The position numbers and the translations under genes are program-made. Of a stretch of DNA of 51,568 bases, positions 5,273 through 14,484 are shown piece after piece. Each line of letters opens with the position of its first letter. Position 1 is the first letter of the stretch. Source of the stretch: Bacteroidota bacterium (GTDB lineage Bacteria; Bacteroidota; Bacteroidia; Chitinophagales; Chitinophagaceae); assembly GCA_013285855.1 (NCBI GenBank), contig JABDGW010000014.1, forward strand, positions 1 through 51,568, given 5' to 3'. The notes beneath the pieces are model-generated. The model made no database searches. It was not told where the DNA came from and saw only the letters and a list, made by a program, of their open reading frames with translations.

Positions 5273-6418
5273 TTAGAATTTCATCAGCGTTTCTCTCGCT
5301 ATAACTATTTTTTGTATTTCCGATGTGCCTTCACCAATAGTGCAAAGCTTTGCATCGCGATAAAATTTTTCTACCGGAAATTCTTTTGTATAACCATTGC
5401 CTCCAAAAATTTGTACTGCTTCATTGGCAACTCTTACAGCAACCTCACTTGCATAATATTTTGCCATTGCTGCTTCACGTGTTACAGGCTGGTGATTATT
5501 TTTTAATTCACAGGCACGCAGTGTAAGCAAATCAGCAGCATCAATTTCTGTTGCCATATCTGCCAGCTTAAAACTTATTCCCTGGAAATTTGCAATCGGC
5601 TGGTCAAACTGGTATCGTTCTTTGCTATATTTTGCAGCAGCTTCAAAAGCGCCTTTAGCTATACCAAGAGATAATGACGCTATTGAAATTCTTCCCCCAT
5701 CTAATACTTTCATTGATTGTTTAAAACCATCACCAACTTTGCCCAACCTGTTTTCATCCGGGATAATACAATTGTCAAAAATCATTTCTGCAGTTTCGCT
5801 GGCGCGCATTCCTAATTTGTTTTCTTTTTTTCCGCCTGAAAAACCCGGCGTTCCGCGCTCTACAACAAAAGCAGTTGCATTATTTTTTGTACGTGCTTCA
5901 CCGGTTCTTGCAATTACCACGGCAACATTGCCGCTTTTGCCGTGTGTTATCCATGACTTTGTTCCGTTCAAAATCCAATCACTGCCTTTTTTAGTTGCAG
6001 TGCATTTCATATTGCCGGCATCGCTGCCGGTGTTTGGTTCGGTTAAACCCCAGGCGCCAATCCATTCTCCGCTTGAAAGCTTTGGCAGGTATTTATTCTT
6101 TTGTTCTTCATTTCCAAATGCAAGAATATGACCTGTGCAAAGTGAGTTATGCGCCGCATAACTTAACCCGATTGATCCGCAAACCTTTGATATTTCTTCA
6201 ATGATCGCTTTATATTCTGAATAGCTTAAGCCTGAACCACCATATTCTTCCGGAACTAAAACACCCATCAACCCAAGCTTTCCCATTTCATGTAAAACAT
6301 GCGCTGGAAATTCCTGCGATTCATCCCATTGCATTACATAAGGCTTTATATACTGAGCGGTAAATTGTTTGGCCGTTTCTGTAACCTGTTGTGTTATTTC
6401 TTCGGTTAATATATTCAT
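5273..6418 (-). CDS. Acyl-CoA dehydrogenase
   Basis: FAD enzyme of 381 residues that introduces the alpha-beta double bond into acyl-CoA. All parts of the family are present in order: N-terminal helices ([25 protein letters not shown]), the FAD/substrate strand [30 protein letters not shown], the C-terminal helix bundle with [31 protein letters not shown] and [16 protein letters not shown]. Length is typical of short- and branched-chain members; chain-length choice cannot be read reliably. Monocistronic, with its own promoter box, terminator and a perfect palindrome at the presumed transcript start, which suggests control by a repressor sensing acyl-CoA. Confidence 0.94.
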
Positions 6419-6422
6419 TAAA

Positions 6423-6436
6423 CTAACATTTGTTAG
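6423..6436. promoter_or_regulatory. Palindromic operator candidate at the acyl-CoA dehydrogenase promoter
   Basis: CTAACA TT TGTTAG is a perfect 14-base inverted repeat lying between the -7 box (6441-6448) and the ATG (6418) of the acyl-CoA dehydrogenase, where the transcript should begin (about 6434). The size and position fit the operator of a TetR-type repressor; many fatty-acid degradation genes are controlled that way. No regulator gene is adjacent, so the partner is not identified. Confidence 0.4.
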
Positions 6437-6440
6437 CGTG

Positions 6441-9616: not shown

Positions 9617-9691
9617 GGGAGTTTAGCTCAGCTGGTTTAGAGCATCTGCCTTACAAGCAGAGGGTCGGCGGTTCGATCCCGTCAACTCCCA
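9617..9691 (+). tRNA. tRNA-Val (anticodon TAC)
   Basis: Complete cloverleaf: acceptor GGGAGTT (9617-9623) pairs with AACTCCC (9684-9690), discriminator A at 9691, D-arm with AGCTCAGCTGGTTTAGAGC, anticodon stem TCTGC/GCAGA (9645-9649 and 9657-9661) with loop CTTACAA giving anticodon TAC at 9652-9654, and T-arm GGCGGTTCGATCCCGTC. CCA is not encoded (CTA follows the discriminator). It reads GUA-type valine codons. A partial, decayed copy of its 3' half lies at 10479-10522. Confidence 0.96.
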
Positions 9692-13000: not shown

Positions 13001-13690
13001 ATGGAACTTGAGAAACATTATATAAACCGAAGTGGTTGGTTAAGAGCAGCAGTATTGGGTGCAAATGATGGAATACTTTCAACAACAAGTTTGGCGATTG
13101 GGGTAGCTGCAGCCAGCACAACAAGAAATCCTGTTATACTGGCAACTCTTGCGGGCCTGGTAGCAGGAGCATTGTCAATGGCGGCAGGTGAATATGTTTC
13201 AGTAAGCTCACAATCTGATGTAGAAGCAGCCGATTTAAAAAGAGAAAAAAAAGAACTGGAAGCAATGCCTGAAGTTGAATTAAAAGAGTTGGCTAAGCTT
13301 TATGAGAAAAGAGGTCTTACGCATCAGCTTGCCATGGAAGTAGCTGTTCAACTTACCAATCATGATGCATTAGCAGCACACGCAAGAGATGAATTAGGTA
13401 TTAATGAAATTACGCAGGCAAAACCTTTCCAGGCAGCTTTGGCATCGGCTTGTTCATTTATTGCGGGCGGTTTATTGCCGTTACTTGTGTCTTTTGTTGC
13501 ACCACTTAAACAAATGATATATTTTCAATACACTTGTTCTATAATTTTTCTCGCGTTTTCCGGTGCAATTGCAGCAAGAGCAGGTGGTTCAATAATCAGC
13601 AAGTCAATAATAAGAATTTGTTTCTGGGGAACATTTGCCATGCTTATGTCAGCATTGGTTGGTTATTTATTTGGAGCAAAAGCAGGATGA
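13001..13690 (+). CDS. VIT1/CCC1 family iron/manganese transporter
   Basis: A 229-residue membrane protein of the VIT1/CCC1 family. The opening HYINRSGWLRAAVLGANDGILSTTSLAIGVAAA is the first membrane segment with the conserved Asn-Asp pair, followed by AGLVAGALSMAAGEYVSVSSQSDVE (second segment and the conserved SMAxGEYVSV run), a charged cytoplasmic helix rich in Glu (about residues 75-110) that in the plant relatives binds metal, and three C-terminal membrane segments. Relatives move ferrous iron or manganese out of the cytoplasm; direction and metal here are inferred. Starts at ATG 13001; it is a single gene. Confidence 0.9.
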   Translation: MELEKHYINRSGWLRAAVLGANDGILSTTSLAIGVAAASTTRNPVILATLAGLVAGALSMAAGEYVSVSSQSDVEAADLKREKKELEAMPEVELKELAKLYEKRGLTHQLAMEVAVQLTNHDALAAHARDELGINEITQAKPFQAALASACSFIAGGLLPLLVSFVAPLKQMIYFQYTCSIIFLAFSGAIAARAGGSIISKSIIRICFWGTFAMLMSALVGYLFGAKAG

Positions 13691-13772
13691 ATTTAAACAA
13701 AAAATTGCAGGAGCTGTAATTACAGGCTTTAAGTAATTTTTTTAACCGCATTCTCAAGCCATGATAAGCATA

Positions 13773-13845
13773 AAAAAAATCCCGTCGGGGAACCGATGGG
13801 ATTTGTTATGAGCAAGCAACCGATTGACTTTTAAAAACGTCAATA
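13773..13845 (-). ncRNA. Candidate small RNA with its own promoter and terminator
   Basis: On the minus strand between two plus-strand genes there is a complete small transcription unit: TTTG at 13882-13879 and TATATTTTG at 13860-13852 form a promoter with the usual TTTG-to-TTTG distance of 23 bases (18 plus a 5-base TATAT), and a strong intrinsic terminator (13804-13777) follows. The predicted RNA is about 73 bases: a 6-pair hairpin (ATTGAC/GTCAAT at 13844-13839 and 13828-13823), a single-stranded stretch reading GGTTGCTTGCTCATAAC, and the terminator hairpin. No open frame fits it. I do not recognise a named family. Confidence 0.45.
13777..13804 (-). terminator. Strong intrinsic terminator reading leftward
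   Basis: Twelve-pair stem (AAATCCC G TCGG against CCGA T GGGATTT, one G-T pair) with a GGAA-type tetraloop. The long T tract is on the minus strand (GGGATTTTTTTT), so it terminates leftward transcripts, although no protein gene on that strand precedes it. It can also form in transcripts of the VIT gene but without a good T tail. Confidence 0.8.
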
Positions 13846-13921
13846 GACGTGCAAAATATAGATTTTTTATAAACCGAACAAATGTTAGTTATTTTTTTAA
13901 AAAATTTCTTCCTCTTCGTTT

Positions 13922-13968: not shown

Positions 13969-14484
13969 ATGCTTGAAAGTTTTAAAACCATCAATGCTTT
14001 TGTTTTTGATATTGATGGAGTACTTACTGACGGCAGCCTGCTAATTATGGACGGAGGCCTGATGATAAGAAAAATGCATGTAAAAGATGGCTATGCCTTG
14101 CAGCTTGCCATTAAAAAAGGTTATTTAATTTTTATCATTTCAGGAGGCAATTCCCCGCAGGTAAAAGAAAGGCTTTTAAAATTAGGACTATCCAATGTGT
14201 TTATGAATATTGAAAATAAGCTTAAGAAATTACAGGAATTATCAGCTCAATTCAATTTAAAAAAAGAAGATATCTTATGTATGGGTGATGATATTCCTGA
14301 TCTTGAAGTAATGAAATACTGTGGTTTGGCCTGCTGCCCTGCAGATGCTGTTGCTGAAATTAAAAATATTTCAAAATATATTTCACCCGTTAAAGGGGGT
14401 GATGGATGCGTAAGAGATGTAATTGAAAAAGTAATGAAATTACAAAGCAGGTGGATGGCAGATACACATATTCCCTCTGTATAA
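13969..14484 (+). CDS. KdsC-like HAD phosphatase (3-deoxy-D-manno-octulosonate 8-phosphate phosphatase type)
   Basis: A 171-residue HAD-IIIA phosphatase without a cap domain, the size of KdsC. The nucleophile Asp14 and acid Asp16 are in FVFDIDGVLTDG, motif II Ser is in IISGGNSPQV, and motif III is CMGDDIPDLEVMKYCGLACCPADA, which is typical of KdsC. KdsC releases phosphate from KDO-8-phosphate in lipopolysaccharide core synthesis; related enzymes act on N-acylneuraminate 9-phosphate, so the substrate is inferred. It leads a four-gene plus-strand cluster (prenyltransferase, Maf, DUF2490) under the promoter at 13922-13954. Confidence 0.87.
   Translation: MLESFKTINAFVFDIDGVLTDGSLLIMDGGLMIRKMHVKDGYALQLAIKKGYLIFIISGGNSPQVKERLLKLGLSNVFMNIENKLKKLQELSAQFNLKKEDILCMGDDIPDLEVMKYCGLACCPADAVAEIKNISKYISPVKGGDGCVRDVIEKVMKLQSRWMADTHIPSV

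Follow-up and report, generated by a model that had tools for sequence, protein, structure and literature searches.

The window analysed here (the whole stretch of 51,568 nucleotides), which belongs to a Parafilimonas genome of the Chitinophagaceae, almost certainly contains a gene for a small RNA (sRNA) between the genes for a VIT-family transporter and kdsC. The sequence evidence supports a free-standing gene on the minus strand with a promoter, an exposed box and an intrinsic terminator, and the sRNA family that it represents is almost certainly real and is not listed in Rfam. We consider it probable that this is a trans-acting sRNA of the Chitinophagaceae under a TetR-type acyl-CoA repressor, with a seed that would lower translation at mRNA starts. 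This reading draws on computed gene structure, conservation, a covarying terminator, a shared palindrome and complementarity to tolC. To our knowledge, few sRNA families have been described in Bacteroidota outside Bacteroides.

Structure and conservation of the predicted sRNA gene

The features of the locus, and of a second site in the window discussed below, are as follows. The 5' end of the sRNA (13846 +/- 3) is placed by promoter spacing.

13772..13846, minus strand: predicted sRNA, ~75 nt, from promoter, fold and conservation (covariance-model match 13827-13770)
13805..13823, minus strand: conserved single-stranded box (seed) TCGGTTGCTTGCTCATAAC, from cross-genus comparison
13777..13804, minus strand: intrinsic terminator hairpin AAATCCCATCGG-TTCC-CCGACGGGATTT, with one A-C mismatch in the stem
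13772..13779, minus strand: terminator T tract (T8)
13824..13843, minus strand: 5' hairpin TTGACGTTTTTAAAAGTCAA, Parafilimonas only
13852..13860, minus strand: -7 promoter element TATATTTTG
13879..13882, minus strand: -33 promoter element TTTG, within the palindrome
13873..13890, minus strand: TetR-type operator-like palindrome AACTAACATTTGTTCGGT, which includes the -33 box
13001-13690, plus strand: VIT-family transporter gene (Pfam PF01988)
13969-14484, plus strand: kdsC, HAD-type hydrolase
6421..6438: palindrome AACTAACATTTGTTAGCG before the acyl-CoA dehydrogenase gene
5273..6418, minus strand: acyl-CoA dehydrogenase gene, presumed to be in the same regulon as the sRNA

An earlier note on this DNA, made from its letters alone, had described a minus-strand terminator with a T tract and a promoter at the right distance, transcribed opposite to both neighbours. 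All of these elements were recovered: the hairpin (13804-13777) ends in T8 at 13779-13772, TTTG (13882-13879) is separated from TATATTTTG (13860-13852) by an 18-nt spacer in a region kept in members of the genus, and VIT and kdsC lie on the plus strand with the sRNA gene on the minus. The terminator was not called by a terminator scan, probably because of the A-C mismatch in its stem. The promoter string by itself is poor proof of an sRNA gene; it was found once against 0.28 expected, and a looser form was not enriched (5 found, 7.5 expected). Such strings are common by chance, as would fit a locus that makes no separate RNA and has nothing beyond promoter-like noise and a conserved terminator, but that explanation is highly unlikely, given that the box ahead of the hairpin is better conserved than the hairpin itself, that no minus-strand protein gene runs into the terminator, and that the palindrome and promoter are retained upstream. 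The locus is judged real because conservation settles the question, the promoter string being weak evidence.

The predicted sRNA fold has a z-score of -2.6 (one of 200 shuffles was equally stable) and leaves segment GGUUGCUUGCUCAUAA of the box unpaired; the exposed segment proposed in the earlier note is in fact the most conserved part of the sRNA. The internal hairpin proposed with it was found as TTGAC/GTCAA in five of the six Parafilimonas copies, where this extra 5' hairpin precedes the core, and is not a feature across the Chitinophagaceae. In g58, g70 and similar genera a -7 box lies ~17-24 nt before the core, so that the core would start almost at the 5' end of the RNA. No second copy of the box was found within the window.

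The sRNA and its promoter DNA show 82-92% identity in four other Parafilimonas members, a fifth is matched in part, and BLAST against 394 Chitinophagaceae genomes found the box and terminator in further genera as well. A covariance model built from 21 sequences matched 46 of the 394 genomes with at least 50 bits, in 22 genera (counted from the table), and gave scattered weaker matches. The parts that the earlier note expected to be conserved in relatives therefore divide, with box and terminator kept across the 22 genera and the internal hairpin confined to Parafilimonas. In a class-wide search the best matches outside the Chitinophagaceae reached at most 41 bits and lacked the core; copies outside the family were rejected as plain terminators, as were matches of 36-41 bits in genus g83, which resemble a gene's ordinary terminator. 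The alignment shows no variation in the core GGTTGCTTGCTCA; single changes occur in some genera. An exact search for the 18-nt core in 84,980 species genomes gave 41 stretches, against ~7.5 expected by chance by our own arithmetic. Approximately 32 of these lie in Chitinophagaceae or Bacteroidota-labelled records and have a hairpin and T tract behind the core; the remaining nine (Legionella, Rhizobium, Rhodoferax and others) have no terminator behind it.

Within the terminator stem, six of the ten pairs are changed on both sides, giving a covariation score of 0.409 (0.221 when shuffled) that was reached by none of 500 shuffles. Among 48 copies compared, the ten bases at the stem end include six or more T on the RNA strand in 45 and on the opposite strand in three. 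The complement of the box carries an ATG in most copies, from which a plus-strand leader peptide or small ORF starting ATGAGCAAGCAACC (MSKQP...) might be translated. This is scarcely credible, as length and sequence after MSKQP vary (6-49 codons in Parafilimonas), the ATG is gone in g24, g10 and g15, and the T tract lies on the opposite strand.

Across copies the sRNA is recurrently transcribed away from kdsC, iscX or ferredoxin genes and usually converges with a gene for an NADP-binding oxidoreductase-like protein; VIT is its neighbour in this genome only, among the copies examined. A tRNA gene lies at 9617-9691 of the window, and in two other loci (L126, L131) a tRNA is found ~55-60 nt behind the sRNA terminator; the latter arrangement suggests that the window has gained or moved genes here, VIT included. 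A cis-acting leader or attenuator for a downstream gene could be formed by the box and terminator, the next gene is codirectional in some genera, and the best sub-threshold Rfam match is PyrR-like (32.9 bits, threshold 54). We regard it as very unlikely nevertheless: no alternative structure is conserved, and in the window, as in most copies, the following gene converges on the sRNA, which leaves nothing downstream to regulate. The Rfam near-matches at the locus were rejected as lying far below the gathering score, and with Rfam 15 neither the window nor 19 homologous loci gave an sRNA match at or above that score, in keeping with the earlier note, which knew of no named family. Nothing relevant to the seed sequence or to Chitinophagaceae sRNAs was present among the literature matches listed. 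In genome G028, which has no model match, the same palindrome as over the -33 box, a promoter-like box and a short stretch ending in a strong terminator directly follow a metallo-hydrolase gene (L167:3984-4165), and TCAATTGTTTGC there resembles a drifted core (TCGGTTGCTTGC).

A shared palindrome and a putative acyl-CoA regulon

The TetR-type palindrome over the -33 box was absent from the earlier description. An 18-bp palindrome, AACTAACA-NN-TGTTAGTT, was found in 26 of 45 sRNA upstream regions with at least 13 of its 16 positions matched, where shuffles gave a mean best of 10.0 positions; roughly a third of sRNA copies lack it or have it in weak form. The size and symmetry of the palindrome are typical of TetR-family operators. 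The palindrome also lies directly before the acyl-CoA dehydrogenase gene in the window and in three other Parafilimonas members, and within the genus it precedes genes that we take, from their sequence and general knowledge, to encode thiolase (three), PaaZ (paaZ; two) and glutamate synthase (gltB; four). This distribution points to an undescribed TetR-type regulon with a putative repressor, and since the palindrome is common to catabolic genes the sRNA seems to belong to an acyl-CoA regulon of the TetR type.

An acyl-CoA dehydrogenase gene in g61 (three genomes) and g87 has the core and a terminator closely behind its stop codon, and the g61 gene has the palindrome. This linkage is independent evidence and the best support for the putative regulon. 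That the sRNA belongs to an acyl-CoA regulon for fatty-acid and aromatic breakdown, under a putative repressor, seems reasonably likely. LacI-like palindromes (TGCAAACGTTTGCA and variants) were seen upstream of the sRNA at L319, L309, L300 and L133, and such sequences occur in some genera whose TetR-type palindrome is poor or absent.

Candidate targets of the seed

In Parafilimonas terrae (G007) the seed can pair over ~20 nt spanning the tolC start codon; this tolC belongs to an RND efflux operon of the tolC-acrA-acrB type. In a scan of 592 genes on 0.79 Mb, this pairing (-35.7 kcal/mol) ranked first, whereas the runner-up gene reached -23.2 and twelve shuffled seeds no better than -24.4 kcal/mol; the top rank is partly selected, since tolC was first noticed as a BLAST match, and conserved MSK protein starts could add to the pairing in relatives. 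All seven readable Parafilimonas orthologues pair (-18.9 to -35.7 kcal/mol), with 0-1 of 200 shuffled seeds equally good; two of the seven genomes have no clear sRNA match, but are just 63-66% complete. The check for complementary mRNA leaders that the earlier note proposed gave strong predicted pairing for tolC in Parafilimonas, with pairing weak or absent in nearly all other genera. A family-wide role for tolC was rejected, as its orthologues in 18 sRNA-bearing genomes outside Parafilimonas mostly show no pairing, that of the two g10 copies being moderate. Because the pairing is confined almost wholly to Parafilimonas, tolC would be a target in that genus only, and judged by complementarity its chances of being one appear evenly balanced. 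A different palindrome, TTTAAACAGTTGTTTAAA, lies ahead of the P. terrae tolC operon (L054:7535-7555) and shares its ACANNTGT centre with the palindrome at the sRNA.

The metY genes of three genera (L262, L263, L266) start ATGAGCAAGCAAC, a perfect match to the seed over 13-16 nt at the start codon; most orthologues are without it, and metY was rejected as a conserved target. A comparison of seed pairing at the starts of neighbouring genes singled out no group. Genome-wide, near-complementary start sites are not in excess in genomes with the sRNA (~1.9) compared with those without (~2.2). This, together with a box that is invariant across genera yet has its target pairing kept in one genus at most, would suit a real, conserved sRNA whose box binds a protein or another RNA as a sponge or decoy. 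We think such a role unlikely, as tolC in Parafilimonas stands far apart from other genes in its pairing, and similarly built sRNAs already known from Bacteroidota do pair with mRNAs (PMC11697453). Action by seed pairing is, on the complementarity found, quite probable.

Known systems and proposed mechanism

GibS and FopS of Bacteroides thetaiotaomicron have an unstructured 5' seed that pairs at mRNA start codons; FopS, of ~65-70 nt, consists of a seed and a terminator and targets outer-membrane protein mRNAs, and one FopS member is derived from a 3' end (PMC7366714, PMC11697453). The Parafilimonas sRNA, as predicted from sequence, is likewise an unstructured seed followed by a terminator, and by analogy its mechanism is most likely trans-acting, with start-codon pairing as in GibS and FopS. 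It differs from them in having usually one clear copy per genome (14 for GibS/FopS), in its host (Chitinophagaceae, not Bacteroidaceae) and in being tied to an acyl-CoA type operator. A search for GibS/FopS homology gave no Rfam match at the locus up to E = 10, the presence of the FopS model in the Rfam copy being unchecked.

FarS of Vibrio cholerae is derived from fabB, employs Hfq and RNase E, and represses fadE (PMC9438474). The present sRNA resembles FarS in its ties to a fatty-acid regulon, here a putative one, and to the 3' UTR of a gene for fatty-acid metabolism; it differs in being driven mostly from a promoter of its own, and in that the gene linked to it is itself an acyl-CoA dehydrogenase gene. 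The TetR-family FadR of Thermus thermophilus has a palindromic operator before fatty-acid catabolism genes (PMC5597230), and here too a TetR-type palindrome precedes such genes; the FadR consensus is TTRNACYNRGTNYAA, compared with AACTAACANNTGTTAGTT here, where the Chitinophagaceae repressor is putative.

The model below is inferred as regards transcription of the gene, the repressor with its ligand, seed pairing in vivo and the direction of regulation. A putative TetR-type repressor of acyl-CoA catabolism would occupy the palindrome over the -33 box and keep the sRNA gene silent. Upon a build-up of acyl-CoAs derived from fatty acids or phenylacetate, the repressor would leave, and the sRNA would then be made alongside acyl-CoA dehydrogenase, thiolase and PaaZ. 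Its predicted unstructured 5' part, which carries the invariant seed ahead of the intrinsic terminator, would pair with translation start regions and reduce translation; the best candidate target in Parafilimonas is tolC, first in the RND efflux operon, whose start region AUGAGCAAGCAACC would pair with the seed. Rather doubtfully, we suggest that the seed may be frozen and its control exchangeable, with an acyl-CoA TetR operator in most genera, LacI-like operator sequences in others and, in a few, the sRNA forming the 3' UTR of acyl-CoA dehydrogenase, and that it couples carbon source to envelope functions such as efflux.

The family offers an input, a seed and one target that are all predicted and testable, the input being the acyl-CoA repressor, and its hosts include the culturable Parafilimonas terrae DSM 28286. 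It would show one seed retained while promoter, operator and position change.
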